Source of the DNA: Saprolegnia diclina VS20
Taxonomy: Eukaryota; Oomycota; Saprolegniomycetes; Saprolegniales; Saprolegniaceae
Assembly (NCBI RefSeq): GCF_000281045.1
Contig: NW_008246078.1
Location: 789,124 to 853,123, forward strand
DNA length: 64,000 nucleotides
Reading direction: 5' to 3'
The notes beneath the pieces are model-generated. The model was given only the letters and a program-made list of their open reading frames with translations, was not told the DNA's origin and ran no database searches. The position numbers and the translations under genes are program-made. Below are positions 32,700 to 48,138 of the stretch, in pieces (the first letter of the stretch is position 1; every line of letters starts with the position of its first letter).

Positions 32700-33416
32700 C
32701 TACAGGCTTGCGTCGAATGGGAGGCGGCCGACGCAGTTGGCGCTGCCGCAGTGGCACGGCGCGTGGCCCACGCCGCTGGCAACGCCATAGTCGATCGTGA
32801 TTTCGTCGTCCCTTTCAATAGGTCGCAGCGCACGAACCTGGAGCCGAGGCAGCACGCAGCGCCGATCGTCTCGGCGATATGTGTCTAGAACTGCATTGGG
32901 CGAGCACGCGTGGTTGATGAAGCGCGTGTAGTTGCCGACGCGGCCGGCGTCAACGTTGGTGCGCAGCACGCAGTCGGTCGCCTCTTCGCGGACGCTCACA
33001 ATGTACGTCGACGCGCGGTTCATGTCGCTTGTGCGCACGAAGTCGCCAGCGTACTCGCCGAGGTAAGCGCCGGGCGAAATCGGGGATGCGGCATGGAGCG
33101 CCCAGCCTTTCGCTGCGTGCTTGGTCACGTAGACGTCGACTGTCCGTGTTGCATCCATCGGCCAGTCGTATGCAGCAGGTAGACGCGTCGAAGCGCGGTA
33201 CGCAAAGCCGTGTGGGTACCCGGCGGCGCCACGCACCATCACCGGCCGCGGCTCGCTGCCACTCGAGAGGTCGGCGCGACGCTGCGCATGGAGACAGCGG
33301 ACGGCGCTCGCCCAGCCTGTAGCCACGAGCGCCGCACGAGAGAGCGACGAGACGTCGAGGAAGACGAAGATGCAGAGCAATGACGTCTCGGCGTCGGCTG
33401 GGCGCTGGCGCTTCAT
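32700..33416 (-). CDS. SET-domain protein with F-box-like N-terminus
   Basis: A 238-residue single-exon frame. Residues 10-45 (LLCIFVFLDVSSLSRAALVA) look like an F-box. The SET domain follows: KGWALHAASPISPGAYLGEY (SET N motif), YIVSVREEATDC, the NHxCxPN signature in RFINHACSPNAVLD, and DEITIDYG, then a post-SET-like Cys cluster (CHCGSANCVGRLP). SET domains transfer methyl groups from S-adenosylmethionine to lysine in histones or other proteins; all three key motifs are intact. The combination with an F-box would link it to SCF ubiquitin ligases, an inference that rests on a short motif. Start ATG 33416 lies 20 bases below a GGCATGTGCC palindrome. Confidence 0.88.
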   Translation of the reverse strand: MKRQRPADAETSLLCIFVFLDVSSLSRAALVATGWASAVRCLHAQRRADLSSGSEPRPVMVRGAAGYPHGFAYRASTRLPAAYDWPMDATRTVDVYVTKHAAKGWALHAASPISPGAYLGEYAGDFVRTSDMNRASTYIVSVREEATDCVLRTNVDAGRVGNYTRFINHACSPNAVLDTYRRDDRRCVLPRLQVRALRPIERDDEITIDYGVASGVGHAPCHCGSANCVGRLPFDASL

Positions 33417-35879: not shown

Positions 35880-37306
35880 GTTATTAAACCCTGCAAAAGA
35901 AGTAATAATGTGCGAGCTTGGAGCTCCTGAGCACCTCCTCCACCAACCAAAAGCGGCCGCCATCGCGGGTGCTTTTAATCGCATCTCACGCAAAGCAATA
36001 CAAATAACAAGTACAACTTTAAATATTTGCATTGTACAACGAACGGGACTTTACTGAAGGGCAAAGGGCATACTTTAATCAAGTGAGACGCGAAACAGGC
36101 TTCAACCAATGGTTTACCTCGGCCAATCACAACGTATGGCGCGACCAATACTGTGAAAATGCATCTTTGAAAACCTCTCAGATTACATATTTGCAGGCTG
36201 GTCACACCACGGCAAGGCTGGTCACACCACGGCAAGGTGCATGGTGGGCCAGCACGGGCGTGCTGCAGCTAGGTTGCCTCATAGGCGCTAGCATGTCTAG
36301 CGTATGGCCGTCCACGCGTGCAAAGTGGCATCATCGGCGCTAGCACGTAAGCGTGCGGAGAGATTGCATCGATGCCTATGGGCGAAAGCTGTGATCGCGG
36401 CGAGCAACAAGGGCCATGCCAAGACACCTTGCTCTGTGTGCAGTCTGCTAGGTGGCTGCGGTGCGATGGTCTCCACCTGGTGCTACACTTGCGAAGGCGC
36501 GTCGCTGGCTCACAGGGTGAAGCTGTTCCGAGGGAGGCTTCTTGAAGTTGGGGTCATGAAAAGCAAAGCGCATGGCCAAGTGAGCTCGCAAAGGATGACT
36601 GCGCCGCTTAGCTGCGTGACTACGTCACACGCCGCAGGTGCGTGGCGAGACGAGAAGACTCCCCTATCAGTAGTATACAGACTGCTAACGGGACCGGTGC
36701 ATCCCACCCGACGACCAGCTCCGACGACCAACCGCCTCATATGTGTAGCAGCGCCTGTGCACTCAACAGCCGAGCAACATGCCGGCGCAAGGGCGCTTCC
36801 TTGGACAGGCCTGATATGTTGTAACAGCGGAATAACCGATCTGCAACGTGGCTCAAGCTGGTGTCCTTGAAAAAGAACGCGGCTTCTGCCGTCCGGTCTA
36901 TGTGTGTACGTGGGCGTCGCGCCCAGAGACGTTGTCGACAGTCCACCAAAGAGAGTAGCTACGCTGTGTAATCGGCGCCGTGCTTGGCACAACCACCAGG
37001 TCGGGAGCCACCCACCTTTCTTGGGTTTTCTGCCCCGCCTAGGGCCCCCACACAAGTACGAGTGCACGGACGGAGGCTTACTATGGATACCTTCTCGCGG
37101 CTGTACCACCACAGCACTGGAAAGCAATCTTTATCGTGGGATAAAAACACCCTATTCCTTGCTCGATGGCCTGTCGGACAAGATGTGCCCACGCGTTCTC
37201 GGTCCTTCATCGCTGCCCCAGCGCTCGGTAGACTAGGTCGTTTGGCAAAGGGCACTGACAAAACACTTTACTTTATGGTACAAATGCTCTTTACAGAACA
37301 TATACG
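35880..37306. other. 1.4 kb spacer before the small-gene array
   Basis: Low-GC start (35960-36180), a perfect 20-base tandem duplication at 36196-36235, and several long antisense ORFs (up to 205 codons) without recognisable features. I see no credible gene. Confidence 0.4.
36196..36235. repeat. 20-base tandem duplication
   Basis: GGCTGGTCACACCACGGCAA occurs twice, back to back and identical, in a non-coding spacer. Confidence 0.95.
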
Positions 37307-37528
37307 CTATCGACTTGATATCGAGCTATTGTGCCGCGGTGTGGGGATGCGGTTGTCGGCAAAGAGGCGGGCAAACTCGTCGCGGGCCTTGGTCGTCGGA
37401 GGCTCCACGATGCTTTGGGCGACGCGCGTTCGGCGTTCGTCCAGATGCATGCGTTGTTGCTTGAGCGTCGCAAGAACGACGCCAAGGTCGTCGATCGAGG
37501 TCGGCAGCGCGAGCGACGTGTACGTCAT
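37307..37528 (-). CDS. Small helix/EFARLF family protein, array member 1
   Basis: A 73-residue frame starting MTYTSLALPTSIDDL. It carries the family helix (VLATLKQQRMHLDERRTR, residues 18-35) and the tail motif DEFARLFADNRIPTP (residues 50-64), separated by a short polar linker. No signal peptide or membrane segment. It is the first (lowest coordinate) of seven minus-strand genes that share this plan. I do not recognise the family. Confidence that it is a gene comes from similarity to its neighbours, not from its length. Confidence 0.72.
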   Translation of the reverse strand: MTYTSLALPTSIDDLGVVLATLKQQRMHLDERRTRVAQSIVEPPTTKARDEFARLFADNRIPTPRHNSSISSR

Positions 37529-37810
37529 GGCGTCAAATGTAAACTGACGTACTACTCAAATTTGGTCTTTTTGTGTTTCAAAACAAAAGCCCATCCCTTC
37601 TCGGTTCAACGACCGACTGCATCAATCGTGACCATGCGGCTCTAATATCTGGTCCAGGGGTACTTCAAGCCGCGCGGCTGCACACGCTCGAGGCAGGTGA
37701 GGTCCCACCCGGTCCTCAGTCTTGGATTTGGTCGAGAGGAACGACGACGACGACGACAATAGGTCCGTACGGCGGACAGTATATTAAATAGATGAGCGCA
37801 CTGCCTCTGT

Positions 37811-38050
37811 CTACGAATTGGAGGCGCCGCCGCCACTGCCCTCAAAGAGCTCGTTGTATTCGTCGCTGGGCCGCCGGGCGCGGTCGCCGTCGTTGGCGTG
37901 GTCGGCCTCGAGGCTTCGCGAGAGCTGGATGCGCTTGTCGTGGATCGCAGCGTGCTGCCGCTTTAGGTTCTCAAAGGCTTGGCAAATGTCGGACGACGGG
38001 ACGTCTGCCGTGAGGTCTTTGGGAAGTGTGAGCACCGGCGCCGACGCCAT
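37811..38050 (-). CDS. Small helix family protein, array member 2 (diverged tail)
   Basis: From ATG 38050 (MASAPVLTLPKDLTADVPSS) 79 residues. The shared helix reads ICQAFENLKRQHAAIHDKR (Leu-Lys, then Arg at +2 and Lys-Arg at +11/+12, as in the other members). The tail ends DEYNELFEGSGGGASNS, where ELF may be a remnant of EFARLF. The longer ORF to 38164 is open but its first 38 codons are unlike the others. Confidence 0.65.
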   Translation of the reverse strand: MASAPVLTLPKDLTADVPSSDICQAFENLKRQHAAIHDKRIQLSRSLEADHANDGDRARRPSDEYNELFEGSGGGASNS

Positions 38051-38363
38051 TTCCGGGCTTTTTTCAGTCTCGGGGCAAAATTGAAGAGTGTGACAAGAAA
38101 GGTCAAAGCCAAAATCCCGGGAGAAACCCGGAGCGAATCTCCGAGGCGCATTGTGATTGGCCACGGCGACCTTTTTGCTTGGGATCCCAGGCTTTTGGCG
38201 ACGTTGGATCGGCGTGAATCTCGGGTCCTGGCGCCACGGGTCGACGACATTGCATCAAGTCAAGAGCGTGGTAGTCAATGTACCCGTAGACAAGGCATTC
38301 GATATCCATATTTATATATATATTGGACAACATTTTACAGAGACGACGGAAATAGATAAGTGT

Positions 38364-38618
38364 TTAGCATTGCGGCACAATATTGCCGTGAAAGAGACGC
38401 GCAAATTCGTACGTCTTGGGGGGCGAGTTGCTGCTCTCGCTGTGGGGACTCGGGAGGTCGTCGGCGGCAAATGCCGTCGCGATCTGTCCGTGGCGCTCCT
38501 GGAGGTACGCGCGCCGGCCCTTGAGGAGCGAGATGGCGTTTTGAATCTCGCCAAAGCTGAGGTCGATCGGGAGGCGGCACTCGTACGAGGTCACAAACTT
38601 GGCTTCGACGCTGGGCAT
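38364..38618 (-). CDS. Small helix/EFARLF family protein, array member 3
   Basis: Starting at ATG 38618 (MPSVEAKFVTSYEC) the product is 84 residues; an in-frame ATG at 38678 would add 20 residues with a basic run (GGRRRRSER). Helix: IQNAISLLKGRRAYLQERH; tail: KTYEFARLFHGNIVPQC at the very C-terminus. The Ser/Pro-rich linker between them (SPHSESSNSPP) is typical of a flexible connector. Confidence 0.72.
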   Translation of the reverse strand: MPSVEAKFVTSYECRLPIDLSFGEIQNAISLLKGRRAYLQERHGQIATAFAADDLPSPHSESSNSPPKTYEFARLFHGNIVPQC

Positions 38619-39829
38619 GCTCTTGAAATGGTGAAAATCGCGTTCTGACCGACGTCGACGACCACCAAACATCCCCACTGTGTCGTTTTCGCTTCTCGGG
38701 CCAAGGGTGGCATTGTACCAGATTCAATTGCTATACAAAACGAATCTGGCACGGCCGCACTGAAACAGGACACCGACGGCCAAGGCAGCCTTTCCCCGCA
38801 CCAACGCCAAAGCTGATGGGCTCAGCAAGCACGTTGGACTCGCATGCACTGGCGTGTGATCGACGTTGGACACTGGCGCGAGTGCCCGCGCGACAGGACG
38901 CACCGAAACGATGACGGTTTGGCGAGCAGCCGTAGAGGCGAGAGCAAAGCTACTTCATTTCGAATGGAATCCGACAGTCGACGTGTGTACGAAGCGAGGA
39001 ATGGTGTCGCGTGCGTCCCTCGCTGCGTTCGTTTGTTGGTTCGATGCCAACGAGACAGACGCCACTGCCCATCAACCAGCTGCGTTGCGTCAAGATTATT
39101 TAAATACAGTTCAAATTTCATGGGCTTAGCTTGTGATTTGTAAGCCGTGATGGAAATATCATTTAATGACGGCCAAAGCGCCCTCGTTGACGTCGCCGGC
39201 CAGTAGCGCTAGATTCGAGACCATTAAAATAAAGTATACTCGCGAATGTGGTCGCGCCACCACAGCACGTCTCGCGTCAGTGATATTCGCCCCAGCATCA
39301 TCTGCCAACACTGCCGTCGACCGTGAAGGGGCTTGGAAACTGAAGGCATCGTTCGATCCGAGATCTTCCCTCGACCATTCGTCGCGACCGAGATTCGAAC
39401 CGCGTACCAGTCGCTGGTGACATGGAGGGTGGCGCCAACTGCGTCACACAGTGGAGGTCTGAGATGTGCGCCAACTACCGGCTGCGTGTGGTGTGCCGTG
39501 GGTTCGTGGCTACACTACACGGTACTAACTGCACTGGCCGTGCTCTGATCATGCAGCGTCAACGCGCCGAGTAGATTCGCTTGGCTTGCGCTCAAAGCGC
39601 CGGCGAATGACCGAGTTTGGGACGCGTTCGAGGGTGGCTCGAAGGTAGGACGATTGCATTCGCAGCAGATTTCAGCACGGTCAAGAGTTCTCTCTTGCTC
39701 GGTCGCGACGCGAAGTTGGCAGAAAACACGCAAGCTTGTTAAATTAAGGCCTCATTCGGCCAGTGCAATCTCGTCTTCTCGTAGAATGTTTCGCTCTACA
39801 CACTTGACAACACACAAAGACACGGCGCG
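38619..39829. other. Spacer within the small-gene array
   Basis: 1.2 kb between array members 3 and 4. ORFs are short and without the family motif. Contains a GATTCGAACC word (about 39390) that looks like a tRNA T-arm but does not fold into a tRNA. Confidence 0.4.
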
Positions 39830-40141
39830 CTAAACATGCATGGGCATGCGGCTGACGTAGCGGCGGGCGAGCTTGTCGTTGGGTGCGGTCGGGAGCTCGG
39901 CCTCGGCCTTGCGCTTCTTGGGCTCGACGCATACGGTGGCAAGGCGTGGAAGCACCTCGGTTGGCGTCGCCGCCTCTTGCTCCTTCATGAGGATCTGGGC
40001 GCGCTTGGTCTGGAGCGCGGCGCGCTGGCGCTTGAGGCCTTGCATGACGCTCACAATGTCGTGGCAGGCAAGGTCGATCGAGAGCGGCGACGGCGGCGAC
40101 GGAAACAGCGTCGGCATGTGCTGGAGAAGGCCGCGGCTCAT
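39830..40141 (-). CDS. Small helix family protein, array member 4 (basic tail)
   Basis: From ATG 40141 (MSRGLLQHMPTLFPSPPSP) 103 residues. Helix: IVSVMQGLKRQRAALQTKRA; then a Lys/Arg cluster PKKRKAEAEL that looks like a nuclear localisation signal, and the tail DKLARRYVSRMPMHV, where LAR is kept from EFARLF but the rest differs. The longest linker of the set lies between helix and basic cluster. Confidence 0.7.
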   Translation of the reverse strand: MSRGLLQHMPTLFPSPPSPLSIDLACHDIVSVMQGLKRQRAALQTKRAQILMKEQEAATPTEVLPRLATVCVEPKKRKAEAELPTAPNDKLARRYVSRMPMHV

Positions 40142-41653
40142 AGTACGTATTCGTGCAGTCGTTGAAAAGCAAAAGTGGTGGTCGAGCGACAGGCCGTGGA
40201 CGCGAACGACTTGGCTGCACGGAATGGTGAATCGGAAATGAAGTATGCATACGTTGCCGCTAGAGTATGGAGCCTGTCTGCGCCTCGCCCCATTTGCACA
40301 TATTGGTTCCACTATGCGAGCGAATCTTGGCTAGTGTTGCATCTCGTCACGGTCCGGCACCGAATCTGGGCCAAACCCGGACAAGTGTTTTTTTCGTTGC
40401 GTGTACTTTGCGCAAGATAATTTATTTAATTACTCACAGCCAGGTCTCGTCCACGGTGTCGAGCAAGGAGGTGCACTCATGCATCGAACACCGGAATCAC
40501 TCGAAGGCCAAGGCCCTTGCCTCCTCCTCTCGGCCTGCGCGTGCGAATCTGCTCGGTCAAGCCGAGTGGGTAAGAAGACCAGTTGATGGCTGGCGTGTTG
40601 TTTACTGGGTGTTTGTAAGGATATACTTCGGGTACGACGAACTTCGACTTGGTTTTAGCCATTATATGATACCAAGCGTTGAGTCCGACCTCATTTTGAA
40701 ATCGACAATAAGAATGCATACAAACCTTAAATAAGAAAGGGCAATCAGAATCGAGACAGCAATAAACTGCTTGCTTGTATGTGGGCGTGCCACGTACGCA
40801 GCTCATTTTGTCTCCACGTGCGACAGGTATGGCAATGTGTGCATACTGGAAGACATATACAAGTCGTCCATGCGACACGAAGCCATGGACCGCGTGGACA
40901 GGAGACGTCCACGTCCATGGATGCGGAGGTCCATACTTGTACATACCTCGCACCTGAGCACTTTTTTCATCTTGTGGTGGGGCTTGCGTCTCGGGTCAAA
41001 GGGCGAGTGCTAGTGAAGCAGAGCCCATGGCAAAACCACAAAACACTGTTATATTCGTTAATGCACTGTATTTGACGAAGTCGGTTGCTGCAACACGACA
41101 TGAACTGCACTGACGTCGTTCGTGGTGGTGTAGACCCGCCCGCGCATTTCGCGGTTGTGACGCCACGCTGCCAACGCCAGTCACCGAGACGAGGTGGTCG
41201 TTTTGGAGAGACTGGACATGAAAGAGGATACGTCCAGCGGTTTGTGCTCATTGCGCTCAAGCGAGCAACGAAAGCACGTGACTACCATAGTGCACACGCA
41301 CTTACCCTTGCGCTTCATCTTTCTAGTAGTACGTACTACGGGCTGCTTAACGCGGACAACGAAGAATACCGGTGTGATGTATCGAACGCCGTCGCGTCTG
41401 CGAACTACGTACCTCTGTGATATTGCGTACGTGATTGCTACGCCTCGCAGCATTCCGGTATGGGAATACAACAGGGTCCCTGTGGTAACCCCCCGCGCCA
41501 TTATTGATTGGCCATGCCTGGTTTTGTCTGCGAAATCGTCGCGCATCGTCACACTGCATCAAGGGCGCCACGCCGAGTGCTCCACGCAAGCCAAGCGAAC
41601 AAATGTGTAGCTTTGACGGAGATATTAACTTAAATAGGGAGAGCGGTCGACGT
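40142..41653. other. Largest spacer within the array
   Basis: 1.5 kb, lower GC than the genes around it. A 61-codon frame at 40477-40662 (minus, MAKTKSKFVVPEVYP) is present but resembles nothing. No copy or remnant of the family helix was found here by eye. Confidence 0.4.
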
Positions 41654-41959
41654 CTAGGAGCACAGCGGACCTGGGACCACGTTGCCGACAAAAAGGCGGG
41701 CAAACTCGGCGACCGGTCGGTGGATCTCGGTCTCGGCCTTGCGCTTCTTGAGTACGTGTCCACTGGTCTCATCGTCATGGACGTCCTGGTCGTCGTCGGT
41801 CATGTTGAGATTGTCAAGGACAGTAGCGCGCTTCTCGTCCACGGCTCGTCGCTGCTGCTTCAAGTCGATGATGATGTCGGCGATCATTTGCGGCGGCATG
41901 TTGGCATTGAGCTGGAGGCGCGGGTACAAAGGCGGGTACTCGGCGCAGACAGTGTTCAT
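41654..41959 (-). CDS. Small helix/EFARLF family protein, array member 5
   Basis: From ATG 41959 (MNTVCAEYPPLYPRL) 101 residues; an upstream in-frame ATG at 42034 would give 126. Helix: IADIIIDLKQQRRAVDEKRA, followed by an acidic linker (MTDDDQDVHDDE), a basic cluster (LKKRKAET) and the tail VAEFARLFVGNVVPGPLCS. It has the complete family plan: helix, acidic linker, putative nuclear signal and conserved tail. Confidence 0.73.
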   Translation of the reverse strand: MNTVCAEYPPLYPRLQLNANMPPQMIADIIIDLKQQRRAVDEKRATVLDNLNMTDDDQDVHDDETSGHVLKKRKAETEIHRPVAEFARLFVGNVVPGPLCS

Positions 41960-42755
41960 CTTGGAGATGGAGGATTCCCAGCACGAGTACGCGTAGTTGC
42001 AGTCGGTGACAGTGTCGGCGACGCCCGTGACCATGGATGGATCCGGCAGATTGGAAAGTGACCCCGCGACGAGCCAGCGAATGCAGACGCAAAGGTGGGT
42101 ACATGCCACCTCTTTCAGTGCGCACCATCTGCCCTTTCCTCACCAGCTGCCACGTAATCGTGTCGCACCCCGTCATGTCGGCGACTATTTTGGAATAAAA
42201 TATGCAATTGTAGCACGTGGTTTGTAGTCGCTACAACCAAACGTAGGCACGCATCCTTGCAATACAAACACCTAGTACAGGTATAGAGTAAGCATGCATT
42301 TTCATCTCTTGGCTTTGTGGACGTCGCAGGGCGCAGCTTTCGGACTTGTCCGAAATGAACGCGGGTGTTCAAGGAACCACGACATCGTTGCGAGCGAGAC
42401 GTGGCAACCGCGCTGGATCGCCCGGCGTATACCTACGATAAGGCCAAGGCCTTCGCATCGGTACTACGTTGCCTTCAAGCTTTGGTTCCTACCGCGGGTG
42501 CTTTCCAAAAGCCACATCATACACAGTGTGAGCTCGCCACCACCTCCACCACCTCGACCAGCTACCGGCAACAGAAACGTGGCGCGCACCCAGCCGTCAA
42601 CGGTAAATGACGTTCGTAATCCCGAATACACGGGACCACCGGCGTGGGATCGATCCTTCGTACACCTGCGCATGCTAGTCATATAGTAGCGAACTTGAAC
42701 AAGCCGCCAGCTCCGGCATACAACCCCGTGTATGCAAAGCGACAAAGTACAATGT
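41960..42755. other. Spacer between array members 5 and 6
   Basis: If the longer start of member 5 is right, 41960-42034 is coding. The rest shows short ORFs only, including a Pro-rich stretch antisense to nothing recognisable. Confidence 0.35.
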
Positions 42756-43025
42756 TTAGCAACGGGGGCAACGCTGCTGCACTAGATCGGGCGCGGACGC
42801 CGGGCGAAGGCTACTGGAACACGCCTCGTTGGTCGCCAAAGAAGGGACGAGCGTCGTGGACGGGCTCGTGAGCAAATCGGTAAAGCCGAGGCTCGTGAGC
42901 GCCTCGGTGCGCTTGGCCTGGATGAGGCGGCGCCGCTCCTTGAGGCGTGCGATCTCGGCAAAAACGTCGCCAGGACTCGTGGGCTGCCACGGGCGCTTGC
43001 GGCGAAGCGCGGGCAAGTACTCCAT
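42756..43025 (-). CDS. Small helix family protein, array member 6 (tail lost or out of frame)
   Basis: From ATG 43025 (MEYLPALRRKRPWQPTSP) 89 residues. Helix: VFAEIARLKERRRLIQAKRTE. The in-frame C-terminus (SSSLRPASAPDLVQ) lacks the EFARLF motif, but another reading frame over the same bases reads VPVAFARRPRPI before a stop, which resembles it. Either the tail has diverged or a small indel has shifted the frame. Confidence 0.65.
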   Translation of the reverse strand: MEYLPALRRKRPWQPTSPGDVFAEIARLKERRRLIQAKRTEALTSLGFTDLLTSPSTTLVPSLATNEACSSSLRPASAPDLVQQRCPRC

Positions 43026-43879
43026 CCCAAAAAAGTAGAAACGGCTTGTAGCAATGGAGGCGAATTGAACGATACACCACAGCAGTGGCCTCAACACTGC
43101 AAGGTGGCACCAAACCGCAGATTCGCTAATAGCTTGGATCGGTAAGCGCATGAATCTCGGTCGAATCTTCACGAGCCCGCGACGCGGAGGTCCATCAGGC
43201 GAGAGTCCAAAGCAACTGTTACTACTCTCGGTCAGATTCGTGGACCGTGTCAACGTCCTCAGAGCTCGTGGGCGTCGTCGGACGACATGCTTCGAGATGC
43301 AAAGGCTATGCATGCATGAAGATGGTGTGACTCAAAGGAATCTGCGATATATCGCAGAGATTTGGCATGCTCGCGAATCGATCGTGACGCCAGAGAGGCG
43401 TCGCTTGCCAAGACTGCGGTGTGCCAGAGCCGACGCGGCTACAATTGTAGCGCCCCGCGCTGACATGACAACACTGTACACAATCGTCACGCCGCACGTT
43501 CGCGGAACGCGCGCGTGTCGAGTCGACAGCGAGGCGAGGCCACCGCTTACTCGTAAAACCAGCGTACGGGGTACACGGTAGTGGTTTGGCCGCGCTCTCG
43601 GCGCCGCCGCCGCGAGGTCGACGCCAGCGCCACGCAGCAGAAGCGTGAGAAACGCTCATCTCCACATCGCCGCACCCGCTTTGCATGTCGCAGCAAAGTC
43701 CTAATTAGGACTTTTGGCGTGGGACATGGTCGGAACGTCTCGGGGTTTGTGGTGCCGCCAGCAAATGTGGTGCATCGCAACCAAAAAACACGTCGAGCTG
43801 CAGGAATGTACGATAAATTAGAATAGCACTAGGTAATAATACAGGCGGATCGACCTCTACACGACCACCGTTCTCGGGC
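43026..43879. other. Spacer between array members 6 and 7
   Basis: No convincing ORF. Two plus-strand frames of about 80-140 codons are Arg-rich shadows. Confidence 0.35.
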
Positions 43880-44152
43880 TTAGGACAGAGCCACACTCGG
43901 CTCGGGCACGACGTTGTCGGTGAAAAGCCGAGCAAACTCGAGCTTGCGCCGCTTCGGCGCGGGTGGCGCCTCGGCTGGGATGCACCCGAGGCTTGCGAGG
44001 ATGCCCTGGCGCTTGGTCGCGAGGACTTGCCGCTTGGCGCGCAGCGCCGCAATGGTCTCGGGGAGGCCGTCCATGGTTTGGATCGAGATGTTGAGACCCA
44101 TCTTGTAGTCGTTGCGCACGTAGTCGAGCTTGTTGTTGGTCGGCGAGTTCAT
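43880..44152 (-). CDS. Small helix/EFARLF family protein, array member 7
   Basis: A 90-residue frame from ATG 44152 (MNSPTNNKLDYVRNDYK). Helix: LPETIAALRAKRQVLATKRQ; linker rich in Pro/Ala; basic cluster KRRK fused directly to the tail KLEFARLFTDNVVPEP. Last member of the array on the high-coordinate side; beyond it no further copy is visible before MCM5. Confidence 0.74.
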   Translation of the reverse strand: MNSPTNNKLDYVRNDYKMGLNISIQTMDGLPETIAALRAKRQVLATKRQGILASLGCIPAEAPPAPKRRKLEFARLFTDNVVPEPSVALS

Positions 44153-45488
44153 CGTAGCTGATAGAATACGTTGGCAGATGGAGAAAAGGAGCTCGTCGAG
44201 GGGACTGGAAATGTAAAACTAACGCGACGAGTGTGGCCGGCCGGCGATCTTTCAGATTCGACAGTATAGTGTATTCAAGTAAAACGAATATGGCAGGCCA
44301 GATTCGACGAGATTCACTGCGTTACAGTGCGCCACGTCGATGCAGCCGTTTCGGTTGAAACCGAAGACATCCAGACGGCATGTGGACAGCACTCGTGGCT
44401 GGCGACAGCTCGGGCATAGCACTCGCTCCAGAGACGCCAGAGAATCTGCCCGCGACATTGCTCCCATCCATCTCCGTCCTTGAAGCTGCTGGAATATGAT
44501 CCTTTAGATATGAAGTGCATTTTGTTTAAGGAAGGACGACCTTTTCTTGCCCGAGCACCCTTACTTTCCAAGGCTACTGGACTCGCTGTACTGTGCTGCG
44601 TCCTAGATACTACTCTTCAAACGCACTGATTCAATGATGTGGATGCAAACTCGATAGCTAGGTACCTTCAGCTGGTATCTTTGTGTTGACAGCACCAGGC
44701 GTTTGTGTCGTTCAGTCCATGCCCTGGAATTACAACTGCAAGTGAAGCAAGTATCCACATGCAATTATTGTCTAGTTCGTAGCAGCGTAACGGCCTGTAA
44801 GTGCAGCCAGGTACAACAACATATCGACCGACCGATGATGAAGTTGCGTGCCCGGCTGTCGTGGCGGACCTCGACGATTGCCTGGGATGACCTTACAAAT
44901 TATTTCCTGAAGCATATGACGCCGCCACGTATGTCTGGACGAGCTCTACAAGGTGTACGATAGTCTTTGGTCGAGCTGCCTAATAAACACCTCAGCGATG
45001 GCCAGCTCCCACAGCAGCACTTGGACGCCAACATGGTCTTTTCGGATGGAGATAATGGCACTGGTTGGAGTTGCAGGCGTCCAAGCGGCTCTGTTCGAGC
45101 CACGCGTCGTTTCGTTGACAAAGGCAAACTCGACAAGCGAAACGTTGGCGTGCGTCGCGTCCTTGACTATGGACTATATATATATATATATATATGAACG
45201 TGTTTCGCGTTATCTTCATAATTACACAAAGACTTCGCATACGTAATACGTAGAGACTAGCAATCTCCTTCTTCTTCATTCGCTCGCCGGTCCGTGGCTG
45301 CGCAGGCGGCGGCGCGGGGGCTCGTCTGGCTCTTCTGTCGTCGCCCTACGACGCTTGGACTAGAACCGAAAATGGACTAGAACTATGGTTCTGTCTGCCG
45401 ACCACAAATACTATACCAAAAGCCATTTTGCAATCGCCACACAGAGAAATTGCAACATGTAATAGCATTGCATTGCGTCGTCCACTAT
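44153..45488. other. Spacer between the small-gene array and MCM5
   Basis: Contains a (TA)n microsatellite at 45175-45195. The region is less GC-rich than the coding parts. No credible gene; the 3' end of MCM5 lies at its right edge. Confidence 0.4.
45175..45195. repeat. (TA)n microsatellite
   Basis: About ten TA units in a row in non-coding sequence. Confidence 0.95.

Positions 45489-48138
<2,650 letters not shown>

Follow-up and report, generated by a model that had tools for sequence, protein, structure and literature searches.

The window analyzed here, a stretch of 64,000 nucleotides from Saprolegnia diclina VS20, carries seven small-protein genes (m1–m7) of one family, all on the minus strand between positions 37307 and 44152 (Table 1). 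Their products share a layout of one long helix, a linker and, in m1, m3, m5, and m7, a tail of the form EFARLF-x-x-N-x-[VI]P. The linker of three members holds a Lys/Arg cluster (KKRK in m4 and m5; KRRK in m7) of the K-[KR]-x-[KR] type, a possible classical NLS. The seven ORFs, their helices, and their tails all agree with a previous description of this DNA, the sequence-only reading.

Table 1. Genes of the array and GAATCT sites around them. Negative numbers are distances (bp) before the start codon.
Feature	Position	Strand	Details
m1	37307..37528	-	73 aa; helix + EFARLFADNRIP tail
m2	37811..38050	-	79 aa; helix + weak tail EYNELF
m3	38364..38618	-	84 aa; helix + EFARLFHGNIVP tail
m4	39830..40141	-	103 aa; helix + KKRK + changed tail KLARRY
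m5	41654..42034	-	126 aa (or 101 aa from 41959); helix + KKRK + EFARLFVGNVVP tail
m6	42756..43025	-	89 aa; helix only, without tail
m7	43880..44152	-	90 aa; helix + KRRK + EFARLFTDNVVP tail
GAATCT x2, m2 upstream	38135..38221	.	starts 38135, 38216; -85, -166
GAATCT inside m3	38543		single site
GAATCT x2, m3 upstream	38720..38747	.	starts 38720, 38742; -102, -124
GAATCT x3, m3-m4 gap	39211..39578	.	starts 39211, 39391, 39573; 593-955 bp from m3
GAATCT x3, m4 upstream	40322..40550	.	starts 40322, 40362, 40545; -181, -221, -404
GAATCT x5, m6 upstream	43119..43343	.	starts 43119, 43152, 43163, 43234, 43338; -94, -127, -138, -209, -313
GAATCT x4, m7 upstream	44254..44447	.	starts 44254, 44300, 44310, 44442; -102, -148, -158, -290

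We confirmed that the tandem array is a genuine family of related coding genes and not a product of chance, because profiles free of window sequences placed m1–m7 on top. One profile was built from four Aphanomyces sequences, none from the window, which had themselves been retrieved with profiles containing window genes. Searched against 1487 six-frame stretches of the window, it ranked m2, m5, m3, m1, m7, m4, and m6 first to seventh, six of them with E values from 1.2e-13 to 4.5e-6 and m6 with 0.068; the next match had 1.2. A profile from ten non-window relatives recovered all seven members at E ≤7.4e-4 (next match, 0.11). Among 20 block-shuffled windows the top scores reached 9.2 and 9.9 bits, versus 10.1 and 16.3 bits for m6, the weakest member and the least certain one. 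For every gene only the annotated frame had a positive codon score; the five others scored negative. Together with the homologues in related genera, these results bear out the paralogous coding family, with its conserved short C-terminal motif, that the sequence-only reading had claimed.

The true start of m5 may be 42034 rather than 41959, since the 25-residue N-terminal extension resembles the S. parasitica proteins SPRG_17404 and SPRG_10830. This start is uncertain because the codon score of the longer open stretch ahead of 41959 is slightly negative (-0.14).

Relatives of the family were found in Saprolegnia, Achlya, Thraustotheca, and Aphanomyces only, and a lack of homologues, which could have told against the family, is thereby excluded. 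Orthologues of m4, m5, and m7 had 58–89% identity, and those of m4 in Achlya and Thraustotheca carry the tail KLARHY, versus KLARRY in m4 itself; for m1, m2, m3, and m6 the searches for relatives yielded no named orthologue. Support in the family tree was confined to the orthologue groups and did not extend to the duplication order. Membership in a known family was not borne out: Pfam gave nothing above the gathering score for the seven members and six relatives (best E 0.11), and a PDB search with the family gave no match (best E 0.16). The prokaryotic genome contigs scanned held no relative, and the literature text searched mentioned neither the EFARLF string nor any of ten locus tags. Judged by these searches, the family appears to be previously unnamed and is found so far in Saprolegniales alone. 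When the genome itself was queried with the array DNA, m7, m5, m3, m6, and the Aphanomyces protein, it returned only the array, a dispersed copy of m2 with a broken frame, and weak matches on C6 (E 0.25; this place was inspected) and on C3 (E 1.65), both with the appearance of chance hits.

Structure models of one Aphanomyces member and of m5 both showed one long helix, with a block mean pLDDT mostly of 86–95, and an additional short tail helix of low confidence. In a 17-row alignment the conserved positions 21, 25, 28, 32, 35, 39, 42, and 46 follow a heptad, with hydrophobic residues at the d positions and, at a positions, the nearly invariant arginines R32 and R39, either of which is present in 16 of the 17 rows. 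Several candidate identities were rejected. In a comparison by eye, the eIF4E-binding motif has its Y in m3 only, the PP1 RVxF motif occurs in m7 only, and the LIR-type and IQ motifs do not fit across members. The proteins are not SPX proteins, as they had no PF03105 match and the SPX matches of the genome sit at six other loci. They do not belong to the PHR1 Myb coiled-coil family either; there was no Myb match, and hhalign gave a probability of 0.1% for the helix against the PHR1 coiled coil.

The hexamer GAATCT/AGATTC occurred 20 times in the 7.2 kb around the array versus five times in the rest of the window (20 of 25 sites; binomial P 3.2e-15), and it was the most clustered of the window hexamers with at least eight copies. 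Upstream of the array genes, 15 sites were observed versus 0.42 expected. Fifteen of the 20 fall between -60 and -330 relative to the start codon of m2, m3, m4, m6, or m7, a number reached by one of 287 circular shifts (mean 5.2) with bounds that were chosen after inspecting the site positions. The octamer CAGATTCG has seven of its eight window copies inside the array. There was no GAATCT upstream of m1, nor in the gap from m5 toward m6; these two absences count against a regulon, and m5 is one of the best conserved members. By eye, the site at 39391 sits within a tRNA-B-box-like sequence; a tRNA search of the whole window found none, and an Rfam search at 36500–45500 gave no match.

The same element is present at phosphate genes. 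Paired GAATCT sites lie upstream of three phosphate:H+-symporter-like genes (L052, L054, and L076), a purple acid phosphatase gene (L047), and two His_Phos_2 (histidine-phosphatase) genes (L034 and L044). For the enrichment test the loci were picked without reference to the motif; the base rate, five sites in 56.3 kb, comes from one window. All six SPX loci contained GAATCT (11 sites vs. 1.62 expected), with the hexamer ranking third, not first, and some sites not upstream. So did three further Pi transporters (6 sites vs. 0.28); the six-frame matches of two of them are interrupted by in-frame stops, and the best TIGR00887 score of any transporter, 533 bits, fell short of the cut-off of 610. 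Four other MFS genes had no site at any of the four loci. Four other purple acid phosphatase regions (ten more were left out) showed no significant enrichment (2 sites vs. 0.53; two of four loci), and three unrelated loci had 2 sites versus 0.86 (two of three). In 13 pooled phosphate loci, including the four purple acid phosphatase regions, AGATTC was the first of 2080 hexamers (19 vs. 2.68). At least four sites within 600 bp were found at seven distinct loci (L054, L063, L047, L076, L029, L060, and L056); L060 was read as a metallophosphoesterase by eye only, and Pfam, NCBIfam, and PDB gave it no match.

The promoter signal held in common with phosphate-uptake genes suggests that the array genes have a part in the response to phosphate shortage. 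Five members (m2, m3, m4, m6, and m7) have this cis element in common with Pi transporters and SPX genes; m1 and m5 do not. Our preferred reading, with a probability of about 0.5, is that the proteins are Saprolegniales-specific small intracellular, probably nuclear adaptors, and that these five genes belong to a phosphate-starvation regulon through their GAATCT clusters. The promoter evidence is good.

It is possible, though we consider it less probable, that GAATCT serves more generally in stress, growth, or development and that the array follows a broader program of which the phosphate genes are one part. Many paired sites adjoin genes unrelated to phosphate, including pyruvate kinase, glutaredoxin, ankyrin, and ion-channel genes, and the octamer is in excess genome-wide (782 copies in 54.15 Mb vs. 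227 of the reversed sequence). However, chance could account for many of the pairs beside unrelated genes, because pairs numbered 47 and 32 versus 18 and 4 in the reversed controls. Moreover, three of the seven loci with at least four sites in 600 bp are phosphate genes (two Pi-transporter genes and one purple acid phosphatase), and the SPX and Pi-transporter loci, chosen without the motif, are enriched whereas the four other MFS genes are not.

An unlikely alternative is that the proteins are small nuclear regulators of the cell cycle or of CDKs that use the ARLF tail to dock on a cyclin, with p21/p27, plant SMR, and yeast Pho81 as the comparison cases. The small size, the basic clusters, an MCM gene about 1.5 kb from the array, and the resemblance of ARLF to RxLF agree with it. 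The cyclin (Cy) docking motif [RK]-x-L-F, however, has K or R two residues ahead of L, where each of the four EFARLF tails has A; a CDK inhibitor with a Cy motif was rejected on this basis, and Pfam and PDB offered no match. That the array consists of one or a few genuine genes amid spurious or decaying ORFs is very improbable: m6 has no tail and a weak profile score, four members are without a named orthologue, and the dispersed m2 copy is frame-broken, but all seven genes have profile matches and in-frame codon bias, and m4, m5, and m7 have orthologues at 58–89% identity. Least probable is that the proteins are effectors, secreted or translocated into the host, that multiplied in a pathogenic lineage. 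The tandem arrangement and fast divergence of these small proteins, in an order rich in pathogens, might raise this idea, but by hydropathy alone none of the seven has a strongly hydrophobic N-terminal stretch (best 10-residue mean 0.70–1.54), three have basic clusters, and relatives exist in Achlya and Thraustotheca. The sequence-only reading had considered a host- or stress-related expansion; the element common to phosphate-acquisition genes favors its stress part, and its host part is not supported by the hydropathy result.

For the mechanism of the phosphate-starvation adaptors, we infer that a GARP/PHR-like Myb factor would bind GAATCT and that phosphate shortage would induce the array genes. 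The helix may pair with an acidic partner through its d-position hydrophobic residues and a-position arginines, and the C-terminal FxxLF-type tail may dock on a second conserved partner. The outcome would be feedback on the phosphate response, such as plant SPX1/2 and yeast Spl2 give; variant or competing roles would fall to the copies lacking the tail or the basic cluster. A more speculative extension, which we regard as rather doubtful, is that Saprolegniales have a phosphate-signaling layer of their own, in which induced mini-proteins would tune the phosphate response, the arginine-striped helix binding an SPX sensor or the GAATCT-binding factor and the EFARLF tail a second partner. If this were true, the array of seven genes would give graded feedback on the phosphate response, a device of which we know no counterpart in plants, fungi, or algae.

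Phosphate and phosphite biology matter in the oomycete pathogen lineage, and no oomycete phosphate regulon appeared among the top-ranked results of our literature searches. A defined element in front of Pi transporters, phosphatases, and SPX genes offers a regulon open to testing in this lineage, whose pathogens attack animals and plants, and an orphan small-protein family of four genera gains a concrete condition and a concrete partner class to test.

In yeast, Spl2 and the minimal domain of Pho81 are likewise small regulators of phosphate starvation, of about 80–150 residues; the likeness is one of size and role. The plant and algal PHR1/PSR1-SPX-NIGT1 circuit is similar in that Pi transporters, phosphatases, and SPX genes are co-regulated through their promoters. 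In contrast, the array proteins lack a DNA-binding or SPX domain and do not resemble the PHR1 coiled coil, and PHR1 itself binds P1BS (GNATATNC), for which the array shows no enrichment (1 site in 7.2 kb vs. 7 in 56.8 kb). The diatom Phaeodactylum is a stramenopile, as are oomycetes. PSR1/PHR and SPX are described as acting in Phaeodactylum (PMC12396336; PMC8233357). Surveys of promoter motifs and factors in oomycetes also deal with promoter elements and binding sites (PMC3597505, PMC3520976, PMC11267843); their main texts do not contain the terms GAATC or AGATTC, and one of them is described as leaving single-repeat Mybs aside (PMC11267843). The GARP family is termed plant-specific (PMC11082045), which counts against a GARP-like factor here. 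GAATCT includes both GAATC, the recognition sequence given for NIGT1, and AATCT, that given for ARR10 (PMC11082045; PMC7660924), and NIGT1 is described as a repressor that binds paired inverted GAATC (PMC7660924).

All seven minus-strand ORFs (m1 to m7) that the sequence-only reading took for a tandem paralogous family were verified at their claimed places. A family profile built from four Aphanomyces proteins in public databases was run on the 1487 open stretches of at least 25 residues in the window; m1-m7 filled the top seven places with 47.8 to 10.1 bits, the runner-up had 6.2 bits, and the best match in each of 20 block-shuffled windows reached 4.6-9.2 bits. With this profile alone m6 was close to noise (E 0.068); a profile from ten non-window relatives gave it 16.3 bits, with the next match at 9.4 and shuffled tops at 4.3-9.9. 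Because these relatives had themselves been recovered via profiles containing window genes, the independence of the test extends to sequence but not to selection. A codon score with ten other window stretches as its training set gave positive in-frame values for 7/7 genes (0.14-0.40 bits per codon), while the remaining five frames all came out negative. Ranks and codon scores together bear out a coding family.

Homologues in other oomycetes, which that reading had also proposed to look for, were found by profile search in Saprolegnia, Thraustotheca, Achlya, and Aphanomyces. Besides the window's own proteins, the three database searches (two to E 10, one to E 1) returned three relatives from S. 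parasitica, two each from Achlya hypogyna and Thraustotheca clavata, and, within Aphanomyces, three records from A. euteiches, one protein from A. invadans, and one partial protein from A. astaci. They returned none beyond these genera, although matches needed shared 5-residue words and one search scored 8000 candidates, so that remote relatives could escape. Identity to S. parasitica orthologues was 85% for m5 and 89% for m7; to those of Achlya and Thraustotheca it was 72-74% for m4 and 58-59% for m5. The m4 and m5 orthologues of Achlya and Thraustotheca, and the m5 and m7 orthologues of S. parasitica, have consecutive locus tags, apparently on one contig. Because of this adjacency, we infer that the array predates Saprolegnia, Achlya, and Thraustotheca. 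In the family tree, orthologue groups alone (such as the m4 and m5 types) have support.

The genome (54.15 Mb, 169 contigs) also holds a dispersed, frame-broken copy of m2 (L002; 338 identities, 5 mismatches, 8 gap positions). It starts shortly upstream of the m2 ATG and has no GAATCT within 1.5 kb upstream. It is a promoterless duplicate, possibly a retrocopy or patch duplication. Also in the window are an MCM subunit gene with MCM_N, OB, and lid domains, which sits on the array's strand about 1.5 kb past m7, and a SET-domain protein with an N-terminus weakly F-box-like, under cut-off.

Within 400 bp upstream of m1-m7, AGATTC/GAATCT was the top hexamer among those found at four or more of the seven genes (15 sites vs 0.42 expected). 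The array region (37300-44500) held 20 of the 25 window sites (binomial P 3.2e-15), a clustering unmatched in any 7.2 kb by other window hexamers with at least 8 copies. Fifteen of the 20 preceded a start codon by 60-330 bp, bounds chosen once the sites were known, a count equalled by 1 of 287 circular shifts. Their flanks vary, m1 and m5 have no upstream site, and one remaining site is inside m3. The octamer CAGATTCG has 782 genome copies vs 227 for its reversed form, and seven of its eight window copies fall in the array. The GAATCT at 39391 lies within a tRNA-B-box-like sequence (GGTTCGA), and a second GAATCT, at L018, another locus of this genome, is in or near such a sequence too; both perhaps belong to a tRNA-derived repeat. 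RNA genes looked for around 39391 were not found, and tRNA prediction over the window gave none.

Loci picked without reference to the motif were scored against a base rate of 5 sites in 56.3 kb, from this window. Eight SPX loci were extracted and two overlapping ones removed; the hexamer was present in 6/6 (11 sites in 18.3 kb vs 1.62 expected, P 1.2e-6), ranking third among 2080. L077, L078, and L080 have two sites each upstream of the SPX start, and of the four sites at minus-strand L081 and L083 one is upstream; the layout at L082 is ambiguous. Among three additional Pi transporters, chosen as the best TIGR00887-type matches outside motif loci (two with in-frame stops in the match), 3/3 carried it upstream, with 6 sites vs 0.28 expected, first among 2080 hexamers. 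Regions before four of 14 other PF16656 matches gave 2 sites in 2/4 loci vs 0.53 expected (not significant), and three unrelated loci gave 2 sites in 2/3 vs 0.86. Upstream of four MFS genes matching TIGR00887 weakly, treated as non-phosphate, 0/4 had GAATCT (0.41 expected). The 13 pooled phosphate loci held 19 sites in 11/13 loci vs 2.68 expected, with the base rate raised by a half-count, and GAATCT again ranked first among 2080.

Close GAATCT pairs occurred at 47 and 32 places (reversed controls, 18 and 4), counts in which head-to-head pairs may be entered twice. These 79 places gave 60 loci, 53 without seven duplicates, and a family comparison was made for at least one ORF in 27. Six of the 27 were phosphate genes, and many other pair loci had no phosphate link. 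L076 matched the TIGR00887 phosphate:H+ symporter (E 3.7e-26 over a 111-residue piece; the gene as a whole scored 533 bits, below the cut-off of 610) and phosphate transporters in PDB (E 7.4e-19). Its paralogues are L052 (E 2.4e-45) and L054 (E 7.7e-6, readable piece). L047 is a purple acid phosphatase (PF16656, E 6.4e-19), and L034 and L044 are His_Phos_2 genes. By eye only, L060 looks like a metallophosphoesterase. Leftover sites at L052, L054, L076, and L060 were more distant or intragenic.

Candidate members of an oomycete phosphate regulon are L047, L052, L054, L076, L034, L044, L077-L083, and L085-L087: Pi transporters, phosphatases, and SPX genes with GAATCT as pairs, clusters, or single sites. 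L063, where 600 bp hold five GAATCT sites close to minus-strand ORFs, one of these ORFs with weak ankyrin matches, is a possible further member.

Positions of the features and distances of GAATCT sites from start codons
Feature	Position	Distance from start codon	Sites in range
m1-m7 array	window 37307-44152, minus strand		
SET-domain gene	window 32700-33416		
MCM subunit gene	window 45630-48138		
L002	C13:414066-414408		
L063	C25:182150-185184		
L047		105-455 bp	5/5
L052		113-325 bp	3/4
L054		120-354 bp	6/8
L076		96-140 bp	3/8
L060		99-374 bp (second methionine)	3/5
L034		about 0.4 kb	
L044		about 0.6 kb	

Conservation across 17 sequences focused on one helix and the tail. Helix positions 21, 25, 28, 32, 35, 39, 42, and 46 make a 4-3 heptad. 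L28 occurs in every row; R32 and R39, which fall on heptad a positions, each occur in 16/17, and all 17 rows have K or R at positions 29 and 38. Two core arginines are unusual for a homodimer, which points to an acidic protein as the probable partner. AlphaFold2 models with the 17 sequences had a single long helix at 18-51 in the Aphanomyces member P0013 and 48-75 in m5, and a low-confidence short tail helix at 64-69 and 109-115; m5 had an additional low-confidence helix within its N-terminal extension (overall pLDDT 73 and 63, pTM 0.42 and 0.34, respectively). Relatives from all four genera retain EFARLF, with SPRG_10830 (an S. parasitica gene model) and the m4 type as exceptions; in Achlya the N that comes after EFARLF is a D. 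Saprolegnia, Achlya, and Thraustotheca share KLAR[RH]Y as the m4 tail, a stable subtype and not decay. SPRG_10830 lacks the KKRK and EFARLF segment of its near-copy SPRG_17404, and the break point suggests a mispredicted intron. Given a helix that probably binds a partner, the basic cluster of three members, a putative docking tail, and co-control with transporters, the simplest reading is that these small intracellular proteins would serve as feedback adaptors of the phosphate-starvation response, which we propose tentatively.

In the passages cited, NIGT1-type GARP factors bind GAATC in the promoters of SPX and nitrate-transporter genes of plants, ARR10 binds AATCT (PMC11082045, PMC7660924), NIGT1 acts as a repressor (PMC7660924), and a review terms GARP factors plant-specific (PMC11082045). 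Passages on the diatom Phaeodactylum describe a Myb-type PSR1/PHR factor that, with SPX, regulates phosphate genes (PMC12396336, PMC8233357). From the plant binding and the diatom control together, a related (GARP/PSR1-PHR-like) factor may act in S. diclina, and we give a probability of about 0.7 to five of the seven array genes belonging to a phosphate-starvation regulon. The GAATCT of the array includes both plant cores, GAATC of NIGT1 and AATCT of ARR10.
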